The position numbers were made by a program, and so were the translations under genes. A DNA stretch of 46,708 nt from Candidatus Contendobacter odensis Run_B_J11 (GTDB taxonomy: Bacteria; Pseudomonadota; Gammaproteobacteria; Competibacterales; Competibacteraceae): the NCBI RefSeq assembly GCF_000531125.1, contig NZ_CBTK010000250.1, positions 1 through 46,708 on the forward strand, in the 5' to 3' direction. The notes below the pieces were generated by a model, which worked only from the letters and a program-made list of their open reading frames with translations, was not told where the DNA came from and made no database searches. Numbering within the stretch: the first letter of the stretch is position 1; the number at the start of each line of letters is the position of its first letter. Below are positions 2,293 to 17,229 of this stretch, in pieces.

Positions 2293-2351
2293 CTGCATTA
2301 GCCATCCACTCATGCTCCATCGCATCATCACTTAACGTGCGGAGGCGCCCG

Positions 2352-2444
2352 ATGGACCTCGTTTATCTCGCTGGAATATCTCTATTTTTTATACTGATCA
2401 CCGGCCTCGCGGTCGGCTGTGCAAAACTGGGAGGCGCACAATGA
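2352..2444 (+). CDS. 30-aa membrane miniprotein upstream of kdpF
   Basis: The start at 2352 follows GGAGGCGCCCG. The 30 residues ([20 protein letters not shown] and so on) form one transmembrane helix ending in a short polar tail. Its stop (2442-2444) overlaps the ATG of kdpF, so the two are translationally coupled. Similar short peptides are found ahead of kdpF in other kdp operons as unnamed small proteins. It could be a second KdpF-like stabilising subunit; there is no direct evidence. Confidence 0.65.
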
Positions 2445-2530
2445 CTTGGCTCTACATTCTCAGCGGCATCATCTCGGTCGGGTTGCTGATCTATCTCATT
2501 GTGGCCCTGCTCAAAGCAGAGGATTTATGA
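2441..2530 (+). CDS. kdpF: KdpF, small subunit of K+-transporting ATPase
   Basis: 29 residues beginning [10 protein letters not shown] and ending LLKAEDL, one transmembrane helix. The LSG motif and the final Leu-Leu-Lys-x-Glu pattern are typical of KdpF, the miniprotein that stabilises the KdpABC complex in the inner membrane. It starts behind GGGAGGCGCACA, overlaps the preceding miniprotein by 4 bases (ATGA) and overlaps the kdpA start, giving a tightly coupled translational chain. Confidence 0.88.
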
Positions 2531-4338
2531 TGACTCCACATGCTTGGTTGCTCCTCGGGATCTATCTGCTGGTTCTCCTGGCGCTGGTCAAACCGCTCGG
2601 TATTTATATCGCAGAGGTCATGGCTGGTCGTCCCATTCTGGCGTTGCGTCTCGGTGGTCCCATCGAATCGGCGATTTATCGCCTCTGCGGCGTCCGCAAG
2701 GACGAAGAGATGGGCTGGTTGCACTACGCGCTCGCCCTGCTGCTGTTCAATGGGTTGGGGGTGCTGGCGGTTTATGCGCTGCAACGGTTTCAACTCTGGC
2801 TGCCGCTGAATCCGCAGCAGTTCGCCAATGTCAGTCCTGATTCCGCGTTTAACACCGCCATCAGTTTTGTCACCAACACCAACTGGCAGGGTTACGCCGG
2901 CGAATCAACCATGAGCTATCTCACCCAGATGCTCACGCTGGCCGTACAAAATTTCCTGTCGGGGGCGACCGGCATCGTTGTCGTCATTGCGCTGATTCGT
3001 GGCTTTGCCCGCCACACCGTAAAGAGCATCGGCAATGCCTGGGTTGATTTGACGCGGATTACGTTTTATGTGCTGTTGCCGTTGTCGCTGCTATTCGCAG
3101 TGTTTCTGGTCAGCCAGGGCGTGATTCAGAATTTTTCCGCCTATCAGAATATGACGACCATAGACATTACCGCCTATGAAACACCGAAATTGGATGCCGC
3201 TGGTCAAGCCATCAAAGATGCCGAAGGCAATGCAGTAACCGAGCCTGTCGCTATTCAAACCCAGACTCTGGCGATGGGTCCGGTCGCTTCGCAGGAAGCC
3301 ATTAAGATGTTCGGCACCAATGGCGGCGGCTTTTTTAACGCCAACTCGGCGCATCCCTTTGAAAATCCGTTGCCGCTCACCAACTTTTTCCAGATGCTGT
3401 CGATTTTTATCATTCCGGGGGCGCTGTGCTACACCTTTGGCCGCATGGTGGGCGACACCCGCCAGGGCTGGGCCGTACTCGCCGCCATGACCATCCTGTT
3501 TGTAGTCATGGCGGTTGCAACGATCACCTTCGAGCAGCAGGGCAATCCGCTGTTCGCCGCCGCCGGCGTCGATCAAACTGTCAGCGCGACCCAGGCCGGC
3601 GGCAATATGGAAGGTAAGGAGGCGCGTTTCGGCATCGCCGACTCTGGGCTATTCGCCACCATTACCACTGCGGCTTCCTGCGGCGCGGTGATTGCCATGC
3701 ACGATTCGTTTACGCCGCTTGGCGGAATGATTCCGCTGGTGCTGATGCAATTGGGGGAAGTGGTGTTTGGCGGGGTCGGTTCCGGTCTCTATGGGATGCT
3801 GGTATTCGCAATCATGGCTGTCTTTATTGCTGGGTTGATGATTGGCCGCACCCCGGAATATCTGGGCAAGAAGATCGAATCCTTTGAAATGAAGATGGTT
3901 TCAATAGCGATTCTGGTGACACCGTTATTAGTGTTGGCCGGAACCGCTATTGCGGTGATGAGCGCCGACGGACGGGCTGGCATTCTTAATCCTGGGTCGC
4001 ATGGTTTCTCGGAAATTCTCTACGCCTTCAGCTCTGCGGGCAACAATAACGGCAGCGCCTTCGCTGGACTCTCGGCGAATACGCCGTTTTATAACGTGAT
4101 GCTGGCTATTGCGATGTGGTTTGGCCGCTTCGGCGTCATCGTGCCAGTGCTGGCTATCGCCGGTTCGCTGGCAGCGAAAAAGCGCATTGCGGTCACGGTG
4201 GGAACCATGCCCACTCACGGGCCGCTGTTCATCAGCTTGCTGATCGGCACGGTGCTGCTGGTGGGTCTGCTCAACTATGTCCCCGCGCTGGCCTTGGGGC
4301 CGGTAGTCGAGCATTTCATGCTGTGGACTGGGCACTGA
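2527..4338 (+). CDS. kdpA: KdpA, K+-translocating subunit
   Basis: 603 residues. This is the channel-like subunit of the high-affinity KdpFABC pump, which binds and passes K+ through the inner membrane. It has about ten hydrophobic segments and the conserved selectivity-filter neighbourhoods TNTNWQ-YAGE and [19 protein letters not shown] (around residue 263). It is somewhat longer than the E. coli protein (557 aa), with extra sequence in the periplasmic loop containing [15 protein letters not shown]. The start is the ATG at 2527, overlapping the kdpF stop, or the adjacent ATG at 2530; AGAGGA lies just upstream. kdpB does not follow directly: an HTH-HATPase gene is interposed. Confidence 0.95.
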
Positions 4339-4422
4339 AACCATTAACCCCCTCTCCCATGCGAAGAGGGTTGGGCTGAGGAAACACCTCAAACCAAAGA
4401 TTGACACCGACAAAGATTAAAG

Positions 4423-4451
4423 TTGACAATAATCTTTTATAAAGTTGTCAA
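4423..4451. promoter_or_regulatory. inverted repeat, candidate operator of the 4468 gene
   Basis: TTGACAA (4423-4429) and TTGTCAA (4445-4451) form a 7-bp inverted repeat with a 15-bp spacer, ending 16 bp before the start codon of a protein with a winged-helix domain. TTGACA also resembles a -35 hexamer. Autoregulation through this site is an inference; no binding family is recognised. Confidence 0.4.
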
Positions 4452-4467
4452 TATGAGGTGTTTTCCG

Positions 4468-5505
4468 ATGACTAGGGTACAGGTGCGCGGCGAAGCTGTA
4501 AGGCGATTCATTCTTGAGTGTGTGGAGAAACATCCGGCGGATATCACGAGTATTACGGCTGAAAAATTCAATATCAGCCGCCAGGCTGTGAATAAACATC
4601 TTCAAAAACTCATTGGCGAAGGTGTTCTTAATCAGAGCGGCAATACCAGAAGCCGTCGGTACCAATTAACGCCATTGATTGATTGGCGTAAATTATATTC
4701 GCTGGCTGAAATTTTGGAAGAGGATCGGATTTGGAGAGAAGATATTGCTATTCTGATCGGCCAAGCGCCTCAGAATATTTTGGATATTTGGCATTATGGA
4801 TTTACCGAAATGTTTAATAATGTCATTGATCATTCTGAGGGTACCTGGGTTAGTATTAACCTGAATAAAACGGCAGTTGCCACCGAAATCGCAATCTACG
4901 ATAACGGTGTTGGCATTTTCAAGAAAATACAAATGGCTCTGGATTTAATGGATGAGCGCCATGCAGTGCTGGAACTGGCTAAAGGAAAACTGACGACTGA
5001 TCCAGCACGTCACACTGGAGAAGGAATTTTCTTTGCTTCCCGGATGTTTGACCATTTTGGAGTCATGTCCGGGGGAGTCTATTTTTCGCACCGATTTGAC
5101 GATAAAGAGGATTGGATCATGGAAAGAGAGCAATTTTCGTCTGGAACCTCGGTGTGGATGAAGCTTAATAATGACACGACTAGAACCACCAAAAAAGTTT
5201 TTGATGAATTCAGTTCAGGGAATGACTATGGATTTACCAAAACCGTGGTTCCGGTAAAGCTGGCGCAATACGGCGATGAGCATCTGGTGTCTCGTTCTCA
5301 GGCCAAGCGGCTGTTATCCAGAATTGACCGGTTTGAGACGGTGCTGTTCGATTTTCATGGGGTGGAATCCATAGGCCAGTCTTTTGCAGATGAAATTTTC
5401 CGAGTCTTTGCGGAACAACACCCGACCATGAAACTGTTGGGGATCAAGGCAAATTCAGCAGTTAAAAAAATGATCAATCGCGCCCGGAGCAATTTGGATC
5501 TCTGA
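4468..5505 (+). CDS. HTH - HATPase - STAS-like (DUF4325) switch protein
   Basis: 345 residues with three modules in order. First is a winged helix-turn-helix (about 1-70; the ISRQAVNKHLQKL helix). Second is a GHKL/HATPase domain (about 85-220) with N-box EMFNN at about 114-118, DNGVGIF at about 145 and a HTGEGIFFASRMFD lid. Third is a C-terminal STAS-like domain of the DUF4325 type (FDFHGVESIGQSFADEIF). There is no histidine phosphoacceptor domain, so it resembles an anti-sigma-factor kinase fused to its own antagonist-like domain and a DNA reader. The ATG at 4468 is preferred because GAGGTG sits 7 bases upstream; an ATG at 4453 is also in frame. It is AT-richer than its kdp neighbours and sits between kdpA and kdpB, which suggests later insertion. 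Function and signal are unknown. Confidence 0.82.
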   Translation: MTRVQVRGEAVRRFILECVEKHPADITSITAEKFNISRQAVNKHLQKLIGEGVLNQSGNTRSRRYQLTPLIDWRKLYSLAEILEEDRIWREDIAILIGQAPQNILDIWHYGFTEMFNNVIDHSEGTWVSINLNKTAVATEIAIYDNGVGIFKKIQMALDLMDERHAVLELAKGKLTTDPARHTGEGIFFASRMFDHFGVMSGGVYFSHRFDDKEDWIMEREQFSSGTSVWMKLNNDTTRTTKKVFDEFSSGNDYGFTKTVVPVKLAQYGDEHLVSRSQAKRLLSRIDRFETVLFDFHGVESIGQSFADEIFRVFAEQHPTMKLLGIKANSAVKKMINRARSNLDL

Positions 5506-5532
5506 ACGACGATCCCTGATTTTTGAGAGAGG

Positions 5533-7611
5533 ATGAAAGAAACCATGTCGCACCCAACGCTTTCCATGTTTGATCCAGCGCTGGCGAAACCCGCCGTCGT
5601 TGACGCCTTCAAAAAACTGGACCCGCGTATTCAATGGCGTAACCCGGTGATGTCCGTGGTTTACATCGGCAGCATTCTGACCACGGTGCTGTGGGTGCAA
5701 GCCTTGGACGGCCATGGCGAAGCGCCCGCCGGCTTTATCCTCGCCGTCGCGCTGTGGCTGTGGTTTACCGTGCTGTTCGCCAATTTCGCCGAAGCACTAG
5801 CCGAAGGCCGCAGCAAGGCTCAGGCGGCATCGCTGCGCGGGGCCAAAAAAATCGTAGTCGCCAAAAAACTGTGGGAACCGCGCTACGGTTCGCCAGTGGA
5901 TTTAATCGCCGGATCTGAGTTGCGGCGCGGCGATGTGGTGTTGATTGAAGCCGGTGACATGATTCCGGCGGACGGCGAAGTGATTGAGGGCGTGGCTTCG
6001 GTCAATGAAAGCGCCATTACCGGCGAATCCGCCCCGGTGATCCGTGAATCCGGCGGCGATTTCAGCGCGGTCACCGGCGGCACCAGCGTGTTGTCCGACT
6101 GGATCGTGGTGCGGGTGACGGTGAATCCCGGCGAGGCGTTTCTCGACCGAATGATCGCGATGGTGGAAGGGGCCAAGCGCCAGAAGACGCCTAATGAAAT
6201 CGCATTGACGATTCTGTTAGTGGCGCTGACCATTATTTTCCTGGTCGTGACGGTGACCCTGCTGCCGTTTTCGCTGTTCAGCGTGGAGGCGGCGAAAGCG
6301 GGTTCGCCGGTTTCCATCACCGTGCTGATCGCGCTGCTGGTCTGCCTGATTCCGACCACGATAGCAGGCTTGCTGTCAGCGATTGGCGTGGCGGGGATGA
6401 GCCGGATGATGCAGGCCAATGTGATCGCGACTTCCGGTCGTGCGGTCGAGGCGGCAGGCGATGTAGACGTATTGCTGCTCGACAAGACCGGCACCATTAC
6501 GCTTGGCAATCGCCAAGCCTTTGCGTTTCTACCCGCCCCCGGCATTCTCGAAGTAGAACTGGCCGATGCCGCGCAACTGGCGTCCTTGGCCGATGAAACC
6601 CCGGAAGGGCGCAGCGTGGTCATTCTCGCCAAGCAGCGTTTTAATTTGCGGGAACGGGATATTCACGCGCTTGGAGCGACCTTTATCCACTTTTCGGCGC
6701 AAACCCGGATGAGCGGCGTCAATCTGGATGGTCGGCAGATTCGCAAAGGTTCAGCGGAAGCAATTCGCCAACTGGTCGAAGCGGCGGGCGGTCATTTCCC
6801 GGAGCCGGTGGCGCGGGCGGTGGACGATGTGGCTCGTCGGGGCAGTACGCCCTTGGTGGTAGCCGACAGCGCGAAAGTGTTTGGCGTGATCGAACTCAAG
6901 GACATTGTGAAGGGCGGGATCAAGGAGCGTTTCGCCGAACTGCGGCGGATGGGGATCAAGACGGTGATGATCACCGGCGACAACCGGCTGACTGCCGCCG
7001 CCATCGCCGCCGAAGCCGGAGTGGACGATTTTCTGGCTGAAGCGACGCCGGAGGCAAAATTGGCGCTGATTCGCCAGCATCAGGCCGAAGGGCGGCTGGT
7101 AGCGATGACTGGAGACGGCACCAATGACGCTCCGGCGCTGGCGCAAGCCGACGTGGCGGTGGCGATGAACACCGGCACTCAGGCGGCGAAGGAAGCCGGC
7201 AATATGGTGGATTTGGACTCCAATCCTACCAAGCTGATCGAGATCGTCGAGACCGGTAAGCAGATGTTGATGACCCGGGGTGCCCTGACGACGTTCTCGA
7301 TGGCAAACGACATTGCTAAGTACGCTGCGATTATCCCGGCGGCTTTTGTTACTACCTATCCACAACTCAACGCACTCAACGTGATGAGATTGACTTCGCC
7401 GGAGAGCGCGATTATCTCGGCGGTGATCTTTAACGCAATCATCATCGTGTTTCTGATTCCGCTCGCATTAAGGGGCATAAAATATCAACCTCTAGGGGCA
7501 GCAGCCTTGCTGCGTAAGAACTTGCTGATTTATGGATTGGGGGGAATTATTACGCCTTTTATTGGCATCAAGGCCATTGACTTGATGTTGTCTACTCTGG
7601 GTTTGGTTTAG
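5533..7611 (+). CDS. kdpB: KdpB, P-type ATPase subunit
   Basis: 692 residues. The catalytic subunit of the Kdp pump, a P-type ATPase that couples ATP hydrolysis to K+ uptake. Hallmarks are the TGES actuator loop (ITGESAPV), the phosphorylation motif [10 protein letters not shown] (Asp about 317), the nucleotide-binding domain and [17 protein letters not shown] in the hinge, with several hydrophobic helices including the [14 protein letters not shown] segment. The start is uncertain: the ATG at 5533 directly abuts GAGAGAGG, while an ATG at 5545 ([11 protein letters not shown]) matches the family N-terminus better. A strong hairpin terminator follows the stop, before kdpC. Confidence 0.95.
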
Positions 7612-7629
7612 AGTGAATTTTTTTAGTGG

Positions 7630-7667
7630 GTGTCTCGAAGAAAAAACTTTCTTTGAGACACATTTTT
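7630..7667 (+). terminator. intrinsic terminator after kdpB
   Basis: Arms 7630-7643 and 7648-7661 pair over 14 bp with a single G-U wobble and a 4-base loop, followed by a T-run (ATTTTTAAT). It would stop kdpFAB transcripts before kdpC. On the minus strand the stem is followed by A-rich sequence, so it is not an obvious terminator for the HNH gene. Confidence 0.75.
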
Positions 7668-7700
7668 AATGCAAATATGTGTTTATGTGCCTTTCTGCAA

Positions 7701-8207
7701 TTAAGTCGAATCTTGATCATTAAGTACTAATTTACACCAAAATACGAGTTGCTCAACACTGAGATTTGATTTCATGGTATTCACTTGAAACGCTAAAAGT
7801 TGAACATTATCTTTGCTGTACCCTTGTTTTGGATCAATTCGATCAATGCTGGCGTTTGTAGAGATGTGGCCTGATCCTTTAATAAAAGTGAGAGGAATCC
7901 TGCTGATTGCGCATAGACCTCTCTGTGATTCCAATAGTAATTGCAAGAAATCCCTATCAATGTCATATACTATCTTGTGCTTTCGTGCTCTTTGTCGCAT
8001 AGCACGAGCGATATACGCCAAGTGATAATCAATGCCTCCAGCATGATGCCGTTTCTTTTGATTGCGTGAACTTCTTTCACGGAAACATGACCGGCATTCG
8101 GAACTTAAATTACCATTTTTCTTTTGGTAAAAGTGTTCAGCGTTTGGTGGCAGCGCGTCACCGCATGTGTTGCAAGGTCGTAGACCCTCGATATTTTTTT
8201 TGCGCAT
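7701..8207 (-). CDS. HNH endonuclease-like protein
   Basis: 168 residues. An N-terminal zinc-finger-like part has CxxC pairs (Cys 12/15 and 38/41). The C-terminal part is HNH-type (GLCAISRIPL, then SIDRID-KQGYSKDNVQL and NTMKSNLS), resembling free-standing phage or intron-associated HNH nucleases that nick or cut DNA. The first His of the classical motif is replaced by the SIDRID form, which is common in this subgroup. It is AT-rich and lies antisense between kdpB and kdpC, separating genes that are normally contiguous. It is probably a mobile or homing-type intruder; activity is unproven. Confidence 0.75.
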   Translation of the reverse strand: MRKKNIEGLRPCNTCGDALPPNAEHFYQKKNGNLSSECRSCFRERSSRNQKKRHHAGGIDYHLAYIARAMRQRARKHKIVYDIDRDFLQLLLESQRGLCAISRIPLTFIKGSGHISTNASIDRIDPKQGYSKDNVQLLAFQVNTMKSNLSVEQLVFWCKLVLNDQDST

Positions 8208-8269
8208 TTGAGTTGTCCCACTTGGAACCTGAATTTGGAACTTTCTTTATCTGAAGCTTGGAGATTATA

Positions 8270-8851
8270 ATGAAAACCCTGATTCGCCCCGCGTTAAGCC
8301 TGTTCATCCTGCTGACCATCATCACCGGCCTGATTTATCCGCTGGCAGTGACCGGCATCGGCCAAGCCCTGTTTCCGGCGCAAGCGGCGGGCAGCCTGAT
8401 CCAGCGCGACGGCAAAGTGATCGGTTCGCGGCTGATCGGCCAGAACTTCACCGATCCGAAATACTTCTGGGGCCGACCGTCGGCGACCGGACCCTATCCG
8501 TATAATGCGGCGGCTTCCAGCGGTTCCAATCTGGGGCCGCTGAATCCAGCGTTGCATGACGCGGTGGCAGGTCGGGTCAAGGCGTTACGCGAAGCCGATC
8601 CGGGCAATAGCGCGCCGGTGCCGGTGGATTTGGTCACCACTTCGGCCAGCGGTCTTGATCCGCAGATCAGCCCGGCGGCTGCCGCGTATCAGGCGGCGCG
8701 AGTGGCGCGGGTGCGCGGCTTGAAACTGGACGCGGTGCAAACTTTAGTGGCGCAGCACACCGAAGATCGGCAGTGGGGCGTTTTTGGCGAACCGCGAGTG
8801 AAGGTGCTGGAACTCAATCTGGCGCTGGATGGTTTGCAACCCAAGCCATAG
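8270..8851 (+). CDS. kdpC: KdpC, assembly/affinity subunit of K+-ATPase
   Basis: 193 residues with one N-terminal transmembrane helix ([21 protein letters not shown]) and a periplasmic domain containing [20 protein letters not shown] and SNLGPLNP, all diagnostic of KdpC. This subunit stabilises the complex and raises K+ affinity. The start at 8270 is chosen because GGAG at 8260-8263 is correctly spaced. It is separated from kdpB by about 650 bp holding a terminator and an antisense HNH gene, so it needs read-through or its own promoter. No clear -35/-10 pair was identified upstream. Confidence 0.94.
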
Positions 8852-8902: not shown

Positions 8903-9057
8903 CAGCCCTTTCAAGGTGCTCAGTTGATGGTTGACGTAACCGCCTGATTCTCTGTTACCCGACTCGGCCTAACATCGGGTTTGGCTAAGAAGAGGGTTCG
9001 AGGTTAAATTCAACTTATTGATTTTCAATGTTGTATTTTTACACCTTGAAAGGGCTG
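8903..9057. mobile_element. 155-bp miniature element, family B
   Basis: The ends are perfect 16-bp inverted repeats: CAGCCCTTTCAAGGTG (8903-8918) and CACCTTGAAAGGGCTG (9042-9057). The 11 bases before (ACCCTAGCGAC, 8892-8902) are repeated directly after (9058-9068). This is the signature of transposition with a long target duplication. The interior is non-coding. IS4-group elements make duplications of about 9-13 bp, so a relative of that group is a possible parent; none is visible here. Confidence 0.8.
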
Positions 9058-9111
9058 ACCCTAGCGACTTCTCTGTTCTTTCACGGCATCAGACCATGGA
9101 GTCTAAAGCTA

Positions 9112-12039
9112 ATGAGTAAGCTTGAAGTTCGCGAGCGGTTCTTGCTTTCAGCGGTCGGCCTGATGTTTGCGCTGATCCTCTCGGGCGGACTGTCCCATGC
9201 GCAGTCCGACATCCATATCCTCGGCCAACCGGGATTGCCCAATCTGGGCCAACAGGACCTGCCCAATCTGGGCCAGCAGATTACGCCGCTAGCGCCCCCC
9301 GGTTCCCGGTTCGTACCGATGAACCCCGATCTGCCTGACAATCCCGCCTGGCTGGCCGGGCAAGCGGTCACCACCGTGGTGAGTCCGGATCAAAAGACCC
9401 TGCTGGTTCTGACCAGCGGCTACAACCGTGTCTTCAATACCGACAGCCAGGCGCCGGAGGCCCAGGACTCGAATGAGTACGTGTTCATCTACGACATTTC
9501 GACACCTGCGCCGATCAAGAAGCAAGTCGTGCAGATCCCCAATACCTACAACGGGATTGCCTTCGATCCATCCGGCTGGGCTTTTTACGTGGCCGGCGGC
9601 CAGGATGATAAGATCCACATCATTACTCGGAGCGCCACCGGAACTTGGGGGGAACAGCCCGGAAATTTCCTGGCCTTGGGCCACAGCAAGGGCCTTGGCC
9701 TCGGCCTTGACGTGCCGCCTGACAGCCCGCTGGTCGAGGTCAACACCCAAGTTGCCGTGAAGCCTTGCGCCGCCGGCGTGGCGATTTCAAAGGATGGCCA
9801 GACGCTGGTGGTGGCGAATTACTACAACGACTCGATCACGGTGTTCACCGGAGGCTACGGCAACTGGTCACCGGGAACCGAACTCGACCTGCGCCCCGGC
9901 AAAAGCGACGCCGCCCAGGCGGGCACGCCGGGCGGTGAATATCCGTTTTGGGTGGTCGTGAAGGGTAACGGACCGACCGCGACCGCGTATGTGTCCAGCA
10001 TTCGCGACCGCGAGATCGTGGTGGTGGATCTGAGCGGGGGGGTGCCGACGGTCACGGCCCGGATCCCCGTGAAAGGCCAACCGAACAAGATGACGCTGAA
10101 CAAGGCCCAGTCGCTCCTGTACGTCGTCGAAGACCAGTCGGATACGGTTGATGTGATCGACACTGCAACCCACGCGATCCTCGAAACCATCCCGGTCATG
10201 CCCGCGTCGGTGTTGCCTCCCGCGCTGGCGCGCTACACCGGCGCAAACCCCAATAGCGCGACGCTCTCGCCGGACGAAAAGCAACTCTATGTGACGAATG
10301 GCAATCTGAATTTCATCGCGGTGGTGGAACTCGGCGGAACCGGTGGCGGCGGCCAGGTCGTGGGTCTCATTCCGACCGGCTGGTACCCAAACTCGGTGAG
10401 CTTCAGCGCCAATGGCAAGTCGTCGATGGTTTACGTGGTCAACGGCAAGTCGCCGACGGGTTCAAATCCCGGCTGGTGCTATGGCTCCGGCCCGCCGACG
10501 CACGAAAATTGCTGGGCGGCGAACCAGTACAATCCCCAGTTGATTAAAGCCGGCCTCCAGAGCTTCCCGCTCCCCGACATGGGGCAGCTCACGACGCTGA
10601 CGGCGCAGGTCGCCACCAACAACCGGTTCTCCAGCACCGTGAGCGTCGACGACGCTGCGGTCATGGCGGCGGTGCGTCAGGGCGTCAAACACGTGATCTA
10701 CATTATCAAGGAAAACCGGACTTACGACCAGATTCTGGGTGATCTGGAAATCGGCAACGGCGATCCCGATTTGGCCGAGTTTGGCGAGGCGCTCACGCCG
10801 AACCAGCATAACCTGGCGCGAACCTTCGTCACGCTCGACAACTTCTACGCCACCGCCGAAACCAGCAATGACGGCTGGCCGTGGAGTACTTCGGCTCGCG
10901 CCCCCGACGTGATCGAACGCCAATTCCCGGTGGCCTACGCGGGACGCGGCCTCAGCTTGGATTCGGAGGGCACGAATCGTAGTGTGAATGTGGCCCTTCC
11001 GACGGTCAAAGCGCGTCAGGCCGCCAATCCTCTGACGCCGGACGATCCGGATCTGTTGCCGGGCCAAACCGATGTGGCTGCGCCGGATGGGCCGGACAAC
11101 GAAGTGAATACCGGCTATTTGTGGGACGCTGCGCTGCGGGCGAAGCTCACGGTTCGCAACTACGGTTTTTTTGTGGATTTGACCCGCTATGCCTTCCCCC
11201 AAGACTCCGCCTACAGCATTCCGCTGCTGAAAAATCCGGCCGCAACCCGCACCACTGTGGCTTACCCATCGAGCGCGTCCCTCGCCCCGCACACCGATCC
11301 GTACTTTCGCGGTTTCGACAATACGTTTCCAGATTATTACCGTTACAAGGAGTGGGAACGAGAGTTCGATACCCAATACGCCAGTGGCGGTCTGCCTTCG
11401 TTGAGCCTGGTTCGCCTCATGCACGATCACACCGGAAACTTCGATACCGCGATTGACGGCGTGAATACCCCGGAGCTACAGCAAGCCGATAACGATTACG
11501 CGGTTGGCTTGCTGATTGAGAAAATTGCAAACAGCAGGTACGCGAACGACACGCTGATCTTTGTCATTGAAGACGACGCGCAGGATGGCGGCGACCATGT
11601 CGATTCGCACCGCACGATAGCGTTCGTAGCGGGCGCCTACGTGAAGCGAGGCGCGGTAGTCTCCTCGCAGTACAACACCATCAACTTCTTGCGCACGATT
11701 GAAGAGGTTCTGGGCCTTCCGCCGATGAACCTGAACGACGCGCTCGCCACGCCCATGGCCGACCTTTTCCAGACAACGCCGAGTCCGTGGAGCTTTAGCG
11801 CCGTTCCCTCGGCGTTTCTCTACAATACGCAACTGCCCCTGCCGCCCAAGGAGGACAATCTGGCTGTGCCAAAGCCCACGCACGATGCGGAGTACTGGGC
11901 GCAAGTCACCAAGGGAATGGATTTTTCGGTGGAAGATCGCTTCGATTTCGCGACTTACAACCGCATTCTCTGGAAAGGGCTGATGGGCGACAAGCCTTAT
12001 CCCGCTGCGCCGACCCGGATGAACCTGCGCCGGAAATGA
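9112..12039 (+). CDS. secreted beta-propeller phosphoesterase (phospholipase C / acid phosphatase-like)
   Basis: 975 residues. The signal peptide is hydrophobic and ends GGLSHAQS. Next comes a short tandem repeat (LPNLGQQ twice), then a YVTN/NHL-type beta-propeller (about 90-480; repeats such as GQTLVVANYYNDSITVF and QSLLYVVEDQSDTVDVID). The C-terminal alkaline-phosphatase-superfamily phosphoesterase domain begins at KHVIYIIKENRTYDQILGDL and has a metal-site-like EDDAQDGGDHVDSH near the end. It probably cleaves phosphodiesters or phosphomonoesters in the periplasm or outside the cell; the substrate is unknown. The start follows GGAG at 9098. A family B element sits just upstream. Confidence 0.82.
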   Translation: MSKLEVRERFLLSAVGLMFALILSGGLSHAQSDIHILGQPGLPNLGQQDLPNLGQQITPLAPPGSRFVPMNPDLPDNPAWLAGQAVTTVVSPDQKTLLVLTSGYNRVFNTDSQAPEAQDSNEYVFIYDISTPAPIKKQVVQIPNTYNGIAFDPSGWAFYVAGGQDDKIHIITRSATGTWGEQPGNFLALGHSKGLGLGLDVPPDSPLVEVNTQVAVKPCAAGVAISKDGQTLVVANYYNDSITVFTGGYGNWSPGTELDLRPGKSDAAQAGTPGGEYPFWVVVKGNGPTATAYVSSIRDREIVVVDLSGGVPTVTARIPVKGQPNKMTLNKAQSLLYVVEDQSDTVDVIDTATHAILETIPVMPASVLPPALARYTGANPNSATLSPDEKQLYVTNGNLNFIAVVELGGTGGGGQVVGLIPTGWYPNSVSFSANGKSSMVYVVNGKSPTGSNPGWCYGSGPPTHENCWAANQYNPQLIKAGLQSFPLPDMGQLTTLTAQVATNNRFSSTVSVDDAAVMAAVRQGVKHVIYIIKENRTYDQILGDLEIGNGDPDLAEFGEALTPNQHNLARTFVTLDNFYATAETSNDGWPWSTSARAPDVIERQFPVAYAGRGLSLDSEGTNRSVNVALPTVKARQAANPLTPDDPDLLPGQTDVAAPDGPDNEVNTGYLWDAALRAKLTVRNYGFFVDLTRYAFPQDSAYSIPLLKNPAATRTTVAYPSSASLAPHTDPYFRGFDNTFPDYYRYKEWEREFDTQYASGGLPSLSLVRLMHDHTGNFDTAIDGVNTPELQQADNDYAVGLLIEKIANSRYANDTLIFVIEDDAQDGGDHVDSHRTIAFVAGAYVKRGAVVSSQYNTINFLRTIEEVLGLPPMNLNDALATPMADLFQTTPSPWSFSAVPSAFLYNTQLPLPPKEDNLAVPKPTHDAEYWAQVTKGMDFSVEDRFDFATYNRILWKGLMGDKPYPAAPTRMNLRRK

Positions 12040-13822: not shown

Positions 13823-16531
13823 ATGGCCGATAGCCTCCGTCCCGATCCCGATCAGTTGCTCAACCGGATCAAGGAGGACGAGGCGCGTTCCCGGCGCGGC
13901 AAGCTGAAAATCTTTTTCGGCGCGTCAGCGGGCGTCGGTAAAACCTACGCGATGTTGCAGGCTGCCCGCCAGTTGCGCGAGCAAGGTTTGGATGTCGTCG
14001 TTGGACTGGCGGAGACGCATGGCCGCAAGGAAACCGCCGCATTGCTTGAGGGCATCGAACTCCTGCCCCGCAAGGAAATTCCGCATCGGGATCGAGTCCT
14101 GTGGGAGTTCGATCTCGACGGAGCCTTGACGCGGCGACCGGCGTTAGTCTTGGTGGATGAACTGGCGCACAGCAACGCGCCCGGTTGCCGTCACCCCAAA
14201 CGCTGGCAGGATGTTGAGGAGCTGCTCGACGCTGGTATTGACGTTTTCACCACGATCAACGTCCAGCATTTGGAGAGCCTCAACGACATTGTTGGTGGTC
14301 TCACCGGTATCCGGGTGTGGGAAACGGTGCCGGATCGGGTATTCGATGTCGCTGACGAAGTGGTGCTGGTGGATTTGCCGCCGGATGATTTGTTGCAGCG
14401 GCTCAAGGAAGGCAAGGTCTATCTGCCGGATCAGGCCGAACGCGCCATTGAGAATTTCTTCCGCAAAGGCAATCTGATTGCCCTGCGGGAACTGGCGCTG
14501 CGGCGCACCGCCGATCAGGTGGACGACGAGATGCAGAGCTACCGGCAGCAGGCCGGCGGCTCGGCGCGGTCTACCCGTGAGGCGCTGCTGGTATGCGTTG
14601 GCCCAGAACCCGGCGCGGATACGCTGGTGCGCGCCGCCAGTCGGCTGGCGGGCAAGCTGGATTGCGAATGGCACGCCCTGTATGTTGAAACCCCCGCTTT
14701 GCAACGCTTGGCAGAAACTCGTCGCCAAGCCATTCTGAATATCCTCAAACTCGCCCAGGATCTCGGCGCACACACCGCCACCTTGGCGGCTACCGATGCG
14801 CCACTGGCGGTGGTGGAATACGCCCGTCAACACCGACTGGCGCAACTGGTAGTGGGGCGGAGCCGATCCGGCTGCTGGTGGCAATGGCAACAACCGTTCG
14901 CTGCACAGCTTGCCCGGCTGGCTCCCGATCTCGATTTATTGGTGACGGCCCAGAATGACGCCCCGCGTCGCGCTGTTCGTCAGGAGAGCGCAACCCGTGA
15001 CGCCGATCAAAATCATTCGGCGTTTGTGCTGCATGGCTACCTCGCGGCGTTGGTGTTCTGTCTGGGTACCGCGCTGCTGGCTACACCGCTGTTGCCCTAC
15101 TTTGATCGGGCCAACATTGTCATGCTGTTTTTATTGGCCGTAGTGGGCACCGCCGTGCGCTACGGTCGTGGCCCAGCGGTGCTGGCCGCAATCGCCAATG
15201 TCGCCGCCTTCGATGTGTTTTTCGTCGAGCCGCGTTTTTCTTTTGCGATTCACGACTGGCAATATCTGCTGACCTTCCTGGTGATGCTGATCGTCGGTCT
15301 GATCGTCGGCCAGCTCACCGCCCGCTTCCGCTATCAGGCTTACGTCGCCAGCGCCCGCGAACAACGCACCCGCCATCTCTATGAAATGGCCCGCGAATTG
15401 TCCGGGGCGCTAGTGGTGGATCAAGTGGTGGAAATTGGCGAGCGCTGCGTTGAAGCCAGTTTCCGGATCAAGGCGCGGCTGCTGCTGCCCGATGAGCATG
15501 ACCGCCTGCCGCCGCCGCCGGTGCGCCCCGGTCGGCCTAAAGCGGATATGTCTATCGCCCAATGGTGTTTCGACCGCAATGCTCCGGCGGGCATCGGCAC
15601 TGACACGTTGCCCGCCGCTTCCCGCCTGTATTTGCCACTCAAAGCGCCGATGCGCACCCGTGGGGTGCTGATGATTGCGCCGGAACAGCCGCGCTGGTTG
15701 CTGATCCCGGAACAGCGCCGCCTGCTGGACACCTTCGCCGCCCTGATCGCGATTGCGCTGGAGCGGGTGCATTTCGTCACGGTTGCCCGCGATACGCTGG
15801 TAAAAATGGAAGCGGAGCGGCAGCGTAATTCGCTGCTGGCGGCGCTGTCGCACGATTTGCGCACCCCGTTGACTGCGCTGATCGGGCTGGCGGAAACGCT
15901 GGCGCTGGAACTGACCGCCGAGCAATCGCCGCATTCGGAACCGCTGACCGCGATCCATCAGCAGGCGGTGCGGATGTCGCTGCTGGTCAACAATCTGCTG
16001 GATATGGCGAAGCTGCAAGCAGGCGGGGTGCGATTGCGCAAGGACTGGCAGTCATTGGAAGAATTGGTCGGCGCGGCGGTGCGCACTCTGGAACAGGCGT
16101 TGCGGTCTCACCCGCTGCGGCTGGAACTCGATCCGATGCTGCCGCTGGTCAACTGCGATGCGGTGCTGATCGAGCGGGTGCTGGCGAATCTGTTGGAGAA
16201 CGCCACCAAATACACGCCGCCCGGAACCGTGATCGGCGTGACCGCATCCACCGAAGCCGACCGGCTGATCGTCGAAGTTTGGGACGAAGGGCCGGGTCTG
16301 CCCACCGGGCGGGAACAGGTTTTATTCGAGAAATTTACCCGTGGTCATCCTGAATCGGCGGCGCCGGGGGTCGGCTTGGGTTTGGCAATCTGCCGGTTGA
16401 TTGTCGAGGCGCACGGCGGGGAAATTCGCGCCGAGAACCGGGCCAGCGGCGGCGCTAGTTTTGTCTTTACCCTGCCGCTGGAAACGCCGCCACCGGTTGA
16501 AGAAACCGAGGATGCCCCGGAGTCCCCATGA
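13823..16531 (+). CDS. kdpD: KdpD, K+-sensing histidine kinase
   Basis: 902 residues. The N-terminal KdpD domain has Walker A GASAGVGKT (about 33-41) and Walker B-like LVLVDELAHSN, followed by a universal-stress-like domain (LLVCVGPEP...). Four transmembrane helices lie around 400-500. A GAF-like region follows, then the kinase core with phospho-acceptor His 677 (SHDLRTPL), an N-box (ANLLENATKY) and G-boxes (DEGPGLP, GVGLGLAICR). It senses low K+ or ionic stress in the inner membrane and phosphorylates KdpE. GAAAGGA precedes the ATG. Its stop overlaps the kdpE start (ATGA). Confidence 0.95.
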   Translation: MADSLRPDPDQLLNRIKEDEARSRRGKLKIFFGASAGVGKTYAMLQAARQLREQGLDVVVGLAETHGRKETAALLEGIELLPRKEIPHRDRVLWEFDLDGALTRRPALVLVDELAHSNAPGCRHPKRWQDVEELLDAGIDVFTTINVQHLESLNDIVGGLTGIRVWETVPDRVFDVADEVVLVDLPPDDLLQRLKEGKVYLPDQAERAIENFFRKGNLIALRELALRRTADQVDDEMQSYRQQAGGSARSTREALLVCVGPEPGADTLVRAASRLAGKLDCEWHALYVETPALQRLAETRRQAILNILKLAQDLGAHTATLAATDAPLAVVEYARQHRLAQLVVGRSRSGCWWQWQQPFAAQLARLAPDLDLLVTAQNDAPRRAVRQESATRDADQNHSAFVLHGYLAALVFCLGTALLATPLLPYFDRANIVMLFLLAVVGTAVRYGRGPAVLAAIANVAAFDVFFVEPRFSFAIHDWQYLLTFLVMLIVGLIVGQLTARFRYQAYVASAREQRTRHLYEMARELSGALVVDQVVEIGERCVEASFRIKARLLLPDEHDRLPPPPVRPGRPKADMSIAQWCFDRNAPAGIGTDTLPAASRLYLPLKAPMRTRGVLMIAPEQPRWLLIPEQRRLLDTFAALIAIALERVHFVTVARDTLVKMEAERQRNSLLAALSHDLRTPLTALIGLAETLALELTAEQSPHSEPLTAIHQQAVRMSLLVNNLLDMAKLQAGGVRLRKDWQSLEELVGAAVRTLEQALRSHPLRLELDPMLPLVNCDAVLIERVLANLLENATKYTPPGTVIGVTASTEADRLIVEVWDEGPGLPTGREQVLFEKFTRGHPESAAPGVGLGLAICRLIVEAHGGEIRAENRASGGASFVFTLPLETPPPVEETEDAPESP

Positions 16532-17229
16532 ATGCCATGCTCGAAACGCAGCTAACCATTTTGATCGTCGAGGACGAACAAGCGATCCGCCGTTTTGTGC
16601 GCGCCGCGCTGGAGTCCGAAGGTCATCGAGTGCATGAAGCCGATACTTTGCAACGTGGTCTGCTCGAAGCGGGCACTCGCAAGCCGGATGTGGTCATTCT
16701 CGATCTTGGCTTGCCCGACGGCGACGGCGTGGTTTTTATCCGTGATCTGCGAGCCTGGAGCGTCATCCCGATTCTGGTGCTGTCGGCGCGATCTGAAGAA
16801 TACGACAAGGTGGCCGCGCTGGATGCGGGCGCTGATGATTACCTGAGCAAACCGTTTGGGGTGGCGGAATTGCTGGCGCGAATGCGGGCGGTGTGTCGGC
16901 GGCATTCCCGCGATGCGGTGGGTGCTACCGTCGTCACGTTCGGCGAAGTCAGCGTGGATTTGGAGCGTCGGCAGGTGTTGCGCAATGACCAACCCATCCA
17001 TCTCACCCTGATTGAGTTCCGCTTGCTGGCGGCATTGATCAGCAAACCCGGCAAGGTGCTGACTCATCGGCAATTACTGCGGGAAGTCTGGGGGCCGGCC
17101 TATGTGGAACGCGGCCACTATCTGCGCATTTACATGGGCCATCTGCGCCAGAAGCTGGAAGCCAATCCGGCGCGGCCCCGCTACTTTCTCACCGAGACGG
17201 GTATTGGTTACCGCTTTTGCCTGAGCTGA
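16528..17229 (+). CDS. kdpE: KdpE, OmpR-family response regulator
   Basis: 233 residues. The receiver domain has acidic EDE at 15-17, phospho-acceptor Asp 59 (ILDLGLPDGDG), a conserved Ser (VLSARSE) and the Lys of SKPFG. The C-terminal winged-helix DNA-binding domain contains LTLIEFRLLAAL and GIGYRF. It is the partner of KdpD and the expected activator of the kdp genes; candidate sites lie at 2097 and 17447. It is translationally coupled to kdpD by a 4-base overlap. Confidence 0.95.
   Translation: MNAMLETQLTILIVEDEQAIRRFVRAALESEGHRVHEADTLQRGLLEAGTRKPDVVILDLGLPDGDGVVFIRDLRAWSVIPILVLSARSEEYDKVAALDAGADDYLSKPFGVAELLARMRAVCRRHSRDAVGATVVTFGEVSVDLERRQVLRNDQPIHLTLIEFRLLAALISKPGKVLTHRQLLREVWGPAYVERGHYLRIYMGHLRQKLEANPARPRYFLTETGIGYRFCLS

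Follow-up and report, generated by a model that had tools for sequence, protein, structure and literature searches.

A winged-helix, GHKL and STAS-like fusion protein encoded between kdpA and kdpB is probably a self-regulating one-component switch from a mobile-looking gene family

In partner-switching, a GHKL kinase works together with a STAS partner, and such a pathway normally involves several proteins. The hallmark of GHKL proteins is an N-box with Glu, Asn and His together with glycine boxes, and the phospho-serine of anti-anti-sigma STAS proteins is located in the loop after the LDF strand. KdpDE represents another ATP-using, DNA-binding form of control. Iteron-type repeats of plasmid origins and operators are tandem direct repeats, spaced by two DNA turns and located at the gene of the protein presumed to bind them. 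No description of the fusion protein or of the repeat array reported in this paper was found in the open-access literature searched. DUF4325 is listed there in a table entry for a Francisella prophage protein of 112 residues (PMC7924643) and, as 'ATPase, DUF4325', in a table entry for a bacterial-like gene of the mycorrhizal fungus Rhizophagus irregularis (PMC5982333); judging from the latter entry, such genes may have entered a eukaryote. The name 'STAS-like domain' is given in a table on Paenibacillus larvae prophages (PMC9341999) and also occurs in the MlaFB paper (PMC7367683).

The gene examined here is located at the kdpA-kdpB junction of Candidatus Contendobacter odensis Run_B_J11, in a window that comprises the whole analysed stretch of 46,708 nucleotides. 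Most likely, it encodes an autoregulated one-component switch that was inserted ahead of kdpB. A probability of about 0.6 is given to the full reading, a one-component, ATP-gated and self-regulating transcription switch that travels as a single gene. As seen in Table 1, the ORF and profile searches revealed an intact ORF flanked by kdpA (TIGR00680) and kdpB (TIGR01497), confirming the original prediction of a switch-protein gene at this place. The expected AT-richness was also observed (GC 0.44 versus 0.59 for kdpB), and the gap from the regulator stop to the kdpB start is 39 nt. The predicted start, TTG at 4423, was abandoned because of its position inside the repeat array, that is, within the control site. 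The most likely start codon, judged from the sequence, is ATG at 4468 with its upstream GAGGTG, and in the alignment M(T/S)xVRxxGE forms the N-terminus of close relatives.

Table 1. Features of the kdp region and of the regulator, in window coordinates.
Feature	Position	Strand	Basis or remark
kdpA ORF (actual start possibly internal)	2419..4338	+	TIGR00680 771 bits, PF03814
Short hairpin-forming repeat after kdpA	4349..4381	+	compared by eye
Array unit 1, ATTGACAC, weakest copy	4400..4407	+	22 bp before unit 2; 2-mismatch match, genome scan
Array unit 2, GTTGACAA	4422..4429	+	sequence, motif and genome scans
Array unit 3, GTTGTCAA; same variant in both other kdp-borne copies	4444..4451	+	motif and genome scans
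Ribosome-binding-site-like GAGGTG	4455..4460	+	sequence
Regulator gene, 345 aa, winged helix - GHKL - STAS-like DUF4325	4468..5505	+	ORF, Pfam, model
Winged-helix domain, residues 1-68	4468..4671	+	model, PDB matches
SpoIIAB/RsbW-like GHKL domain, residues 69-240	4672..5187	+	Z 13.8 to 1til_E
N-box E114-xxx-N118-xxx-H122, the three residues invariant 32/32	4807..4833	+	alignment
STAS-like DUF4325 domain, residues 256-345	5233..5502	+	PF14213, STAS matches
SRSQAKR motif, residues 275-281; 276-281 invariant 32/32	5290..5310	+	alignment
IGQSFADE, residues 302-309; Ser305 not conserved	5371..5394	+	alignment
kdpB; 5533 start possible, 5545 agrees with sister starts	5545..7611	+	TIGR01497 1085 bits
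kdpC	8270..8851	+	NF001454, PF02669
kdpD, usual sensor, still present	13823..16531	+	NF007793 1274 bits, cut-off 1123; PF02702
kdpE response regulator	16528..17229	+	NF007820 381 bits, cut-off 325

The predicted combination of an HTH domain, a GHKL ATPase and DUF4325 in one polypeptide was borne out, DUF4325 by Pfam and the other two domains by an AlphaFold2 model. DUF4325 (PF14213) scored 52.6 bits against a Pfam cut-off of 23, placing the protein in this family, and the HATPase and HTH matches both fell under their cut-offs. Apart from this protein, in which DUF4325 is the third domain, other DUF4325 matches are short frames of 48-165 residues. The full-length model reached a pLDDT of 85.9 and a pTM of 0.79. 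Its residues 5-69, approximately, were matched by several winged-helix chains, and residues 69-237 were best matched by SpoIIAB (1til_E; Z 13.8, 132 residues, 2.7 A), while RsbW (6m37_C) matched the middle part with a Z of 12.3 over 108 residues at 1.9 A. Of the best ten structure rows (Z 11.4-13.8), nine were SpoIIAB, RsbW or other anti-sigma proteins and one was a response regulator; the next group scored 9.4. In the model, the GHKL fold is accordingly nearest to the anti-sigma kinases and appears to belong to the SpoIIAB/RsbW branch. The GHKL part is also matched by phrog_3364, a phage family without assigned function (E 2.7e-8).

A STAS fold of the C-terminal domain has moderate support from modelling. 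As a separate model this part reached a pLDDT of 89.6, and its structure rows were mostly STAS domains with Z of about 5-7, a fold shared with SpoIIAA, RsbV and RsbS; a Foldseek search with it gave no match at E up to 0.001. The absence of a His phospho-acceptor, as predicted, also holds, for no HisKA-type Pfam match was present in the regulator at E up to 1, and in the model the SpoIIAB-like fold starts directly after the winged helix, unlike in a sensor histidine kinase. The window encodes both members of KdpDE; compared to that His-Asp pair, the regulator lacks a phospho-accepting His domain and is encoded among the structural genes. In contrast to SpoIIAB and RsbW, with which it shares the ExxxNxxxH N-box, it fuses the GHKL domain to a DNA-binding domain and to a STAS-like domain of its own. 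From alignment and model, one chain appears to combine three parts: a winged helix, a GHKL domain of the SpoIIAB kind whose nucleotide-binding motifs are intact, and a STAS-like domain.

The conservation of residues was compared in 32 aligned proteins (the masked locus L051 was excluded from this alignment and from the fixed-motif count below). E114, N118, H122, D145, G147, G149, G184 and G186 are invariant in all 32, and the same holds for RSQAKR, with which the STAS-like domain opens. The serine of IGQSFADE, originally proposed as the phospho-acceptor, did not survive this comparison: residue 305 is Ala or Gly in 31 of the 32 proteins (25 Ala, 6 Gly) and Ser only in the window, while residue 304 is Gln in 30, Ala in one and Arg in one. 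Ser305 also occurs in both other kdp-borne copies and in L002. Because Ser305 is not conserved, a SpoIIAA-type serine switch at this residue is unlikely and was dropped. Moreover, no conserved Ser or Thr was found from D295 to V313 in the 32 aligned sequences, in contrast to SpoIIAA, RsbV and RsbS; the regulator has the invariant RSQAKR instead.

The control site of the gene is a direct-repeat array with a period of 21-22 bp, located just 5' of the start codon. An operator of its own, as predicted for this gene, is strongly supported by the sequence comparisons, whereas the inverted-repeat geometry ascribed to it is not. The two halves of the supposed inverted repeat, TTGACAA and TTGTCAA (4423-4429 and 4445-4451), are two units of an array with copies at 4400, 4422 and 4444, which also reads as inverted because the unit GTTGWCAA(C) is nearly palindromic. 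A palindromic operator was dropped as the main geometry since the direct spacing is kept in relatives. With a fixed motif, at least two in-phase sites were found in 17 of 32 loci, compared to 0.04 expected from shuffles, and all spacings were 21 or 22 bp with the sole exception of L054 (24). The layout was also evident without any motif, when direct repeats matching at eight of nine bases were counted in 58 distinct upstream regions out of 60, for every shift between 8 and 60. Shifts of 21, 22, 43 and 44 occurred in 29, 37, 22 and 8 of these regions, while every other shift occurred in at most 5 and the shuffle mean was 1.0 per shift. A repeat at shift 20-24 was present in 55 of the 58, the repeat being absent from L053, L057 and L099. 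In a partly new class set of 27 non-window regions, 6 of which are places already in the 58-region count, shifts of 21 and 22 were seen in 13 and 22 regions. These counts are not probabilities because related regions are not independent, and the sample includes near-duplicate loci (for example L047/L103/L104, L099/L101 and L111/L112). Most control sites hold two to four direct repeats. By eye, the arrays of a divergent clade (L121, L123, L179, L183) are of the TCCTTTAAGAAA type and, after the direct copies, end in a reversed one.

The best promoter-like match in 2300-8400, TTGACA-18-GACAAT (10/12), is composed of TTGACA from unit 1 and GACAAT from unit 2, and its position inside the array fits self-repression. 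The scan itself is weak, as promoter-like matches numbered 3 compared to 5.0 in shuffles and terminator-like matches 11 compared to 7.4; in the same weak scan, nothing terminator-like turned up from the regulator to kdpB, and the two genes may be co-transcribed. Like iteron-type repeats, the array is tandem, direct, spaced by two turns and located at the gene of its presumed binder, with the difference that this binder is a GHKL fusion.

The sequence of the array varies among clades while its spacing persists. Homologues carry, among others, GTTGACAA-type and CCTTTAAGAAA-type arrays, and clade motifs such as GGTTGACAA, GTTGTCGA, TCCTTTAAGAAA, CTTTACAATA and TATAGTTAAAA are each paired with their own recognition-helix sequence (6 of 86 loci, in which the match started after model position 20, were dropped from this comparison). 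For a correlation test, 79 loci were narrowed down first to the 63 that show a clear repeat, those without a clear array being excluded, and then to 58 non-redundant sequences. Motif similarity tracked the HTH beyond the rest of the protein, with a partial r of 0.244 that was reached in 0 of 5000 permutations. That the motif changes together with the DNA-binding helix implies, on the sequence level, that the winged helix reads the repeats. Both halves of a partner-switching system and a DNA-binding domain are here combined in one protein with an operator of constant geometry and changing sequence, and the family represents a natural set for studying co-evolution of a winged helix and its site.

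The distribution of the motif in whole genomes was scanned with 22-bp pairs allowing up to 2 mismatches and with mismatch-free pairs. Of 16 homologue-bearing genomes, 10 contain exact GTTGACA pairs; these occupy 11 distinct places, and at 10 of the 11 the homologue follows directly. The reversed control pattern gave two matches in the 16, both in one genome. The eleventh pair, in G151, overlaps an unrelated ORF and was set aside. In the window's genome, 22-bp pairs with up to 2 mismatches gave the array (read four ways) and one other site, which is at chance level, given five matches of the reversed control. The mismatch-free search yielded the array and one 21-bp pair at G000:C270, regarded as chance, inside a 490-residue ORF that is glycogen synthase-like by eye. 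Since the 22-bp-spaced copies are confined to the gene, bar the one chance-level match, autoregulation is indicated, and no array regulon is apparent from these pairs. Observations against the one-component switch include the extra 21-bp pair in another gene of the window's genome and the 6 of 16 genomes without exact pairs, in which the arrays are less regular or lacking.

For this switch, the following mechanism is suggested. Direct units two turns (21-22 bp) apart suggest that protomers would lie on one face of the DNA as a head-to-tail chain, so that the regulator would bind several units side by side and, when bound, would repress its own start. DNA binding may in turn be set by the GHKL domain as it binds or hydrolyses ATP. 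The fold relation to SpoIIAB and SpoIIAA suggests, by analogy, that the two domains dock within or between chains, and docking of the GHKL domain to the STAS-like domain of its own or of the next protomer could also set DNA binding. The regulator would then offer a compact test of GHKL-STAS docking as a direct control of DNA binding. At kdp, the array may tune kdpB and kdpC independently of kdpA and KdpDE; an effect on kdpB is conceivable because the gene sits so close before it.

The rarity of the kdp placement bears on such a role. KdpB was found at E up to 1e-100 in 19 of the 39 genomes of the window's taxonomic family, and 18 kdpA/kdpB junctions could be read. Fifteen of these measure approximately 11-98 bp and lack the gene; it is present, in the same orientation, in the window, G019 and G031, the latter two from other genera of this family. 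Five other genomes of the window's own genus have kdpA and kdpB adjacent. At 83 other loci, no kdpA, kdpB or kdpC was found in the flanks examined, the kdpB-like match at L194 (38.6%) being a heavy-metal P-type ATPase by best score. A check of relatives for a kdp neighbourhood thus gave a mixed outcome, positive for G031 and G019 and negative for the 83 loci. Because the placement is limited to 3 of 18 junctions in the family and was not seen outside it, the case for a role specific to Kdp is weak. With its recurrence at a single kdp junction, the gene illustrates how a mobile regulator enters a conserved operon.

The gene could also be a neutral passenger, a mobile lone gene at an insertion-tolerant junction with no tie to potassium, and this explanation is considered possible, short of probable. 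It agrees with the absence of the gene from most junctions of the family, with the unrelated neighbours of homologues elsewhere and with the uptake of an endonuclease-like gene between kdpB and kdpC of the window's operon. Other repeats are also held by the junction in four genomes: by eye, hairpin repeats similar in type to that after the window's kdpA lie there in G007 and G030, and those of another type in G004 and G018. The two types in several genomes indicate that the junction may be an insertion hot spot. However, the junction, orientation and array layout, including a third unit of GTTGTCAA, are common to three genera. The three kdp-borne proteins also form one clade (support 1.0) and, judged from their sequences, are under purifying selection, with dN/dS of about 0.06 and 0.09 in two of the three pairs, the third not being computable and synonymous sites being partly near-saturated.

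The same monophyly would suit an old part of Kdp control, which was present in the kdp operon of the family ancestor and repeatedly lost; this history can be held only tentatively. The synonymous divergence of G031 from G019 is in agreement with it, being 0.79 for the regulator and 0.62-0.88 for the kdp genes. Against it, the window's copy is near saturation when compared to the other two (pS 0.73-0.76; 0.73 versus G031), while its kdp genes show dS of 0.93-1.13 (0.93-1.01 versus G031). All three copies are still AT-rich, with GC of 0.38-0.44 compared to 0.59-0.64 for kdpB. Furthermore, the host-gene trees never place the window with G019 or G031. In the kdpABC and rpoB trees the window's partners are G003 and G006 (97 and 99), and in the kdpB tree they are G003 and G026 (94); G019 and G031 pair only in the kdpA+kdpC tree (61), and kdpB of G003 and G031 is fragmented in these assemblies. 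With the window parted from the other two, approximately six losses on the kdp tree would be required by hand count. A recombined kdpA/kdpB tract was looked for in the window and not seen. The simplest reading, hinted at by these comparisons, is at least two arrivals at the junction, with perhaps one shared by G031 and G019; single ancestry with about six losses keeps some weight because base-composition differences inflate pS.

The switch protein belongs to a widespread and little described family of lone, mobile-looking regulator genes. Using short exact peptides of the window protein against a species-genome collection, a scan that overlooks more distant relatives, 32 relatives with 34-64% identity were found, with record titles naming Gamma-, Beta- and Alphaproteobacteria, Planctomycetota, Nitrospira, Bdellovibrionales and Lachnospiraceae (L031 and L035 are titled Bordetella parapertussis, a label as given for metagenome bins). 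In the window's class, 31 of 369 genomes carry a homologue, the window's own included, and no DUF4325 match was found in 7 other genomes of its genus. Measured in 24 of the 32 loci, the gene is AT-richer than its flanks in 23, by at least 0.05 in 19. Unlike for SpoIIAB and RsbW, no widely shared neighbour gene was found among 33 loci, the next most shared cluster occurring in 4; many flanks stop at contig ends or at about 1.5 kb from the gene. The suspicion of a mobile regulator is well supported by this patchy distribution, the lack of widely shared neighbours, the AT-richness and phage genes at 2 of 4 scanned viral-contig loci. At L006/L021 (G076:C72), a second DUF4325 segment, identical where aligned, lies about 1 kb past the full-length homologue in a 94-residue frame, apparently a partial duplication.

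The patchy distribution and AT-richness could also be expected from defence or lysogeny cargo that consists of one gene. Its product would be an ATPase switch, autorepressed until phage infection frees it to act on a host target. Of the homologue loci, 22 come from viral contigs. Ten neighbour proteins were scanned at four of these loci: at L110 the gene lies between a phage transcription regulator and a terminase small subunit, and at L096 an exonuclease and an integrase are nearby. However, L100 and L107 have only neighbours of unknown-function families or without a match. Of ten chromosomal neighbour proteins at six loci, four lack a Pfam match, and the other six fall into families that are widespread or of ordinary cellular function, namely sulfatase, pyruvate dehydrogenase E1, phosphoglycerate mutase, GSCFA, pseudouridine synthase and UPF0182. 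Searches of 50,697 phage records (E up to 1e-5) and of 72,556 plasmid records (E up to 1e-5 and again up to 0.01) gave no match. Moreover, no nuclease or toxin family is among the regulator's Pfam matches, and PADLOC models gave only weak HTH similarities (best E 6.4e-5, residues 18-73) and no full-length match. Such cargo is judged unlikely.

Inhibition of E. coli KdpB by phosphorylation of Ser162, with the kinase called still unknown, and a listing of SpoIIAB, RsbT and RsbW as atypical bacterial serine kinases are both given in PMC7535926. It is very improbable that the GHKL domain is a working serine kinase captured by kdp which phosphorylates the inhibitory serine of KdpB TGES, with the two-turn array coupling kinase level to kdpB transcription and each GHKL domain holding its neighbour's STAS-like domain in a head-to-tail chain on DNA. 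The same pump is encoded by kdp operons that lack the regulator gene.

Several other features of the window were observed. Upstream of kdpA, a 99-bp element is present in two direct copies with 84% identity (964-1062 and 1907-2005) that flank a TraL/ParA-like ORF at 1089-1805, below the NCBIfam cut-off; this stretch resembles a small composite cassette and is absent from the sister genome G006. After kdpC, a 1003-residue ORF occupies 9028-12039; in G006 its two ends alone are present at this place, and it is unmatched at the four remaining sister loci. Between kdpB and kdpC, an Endonuclease VII/HNH-like gene on the minus strand (7701-8207; phrog_1035, E 8.7e-29) has no match in five sister kdp loci or in L118/L119, and the C-terminus of kdpB differs at the site of this gene.
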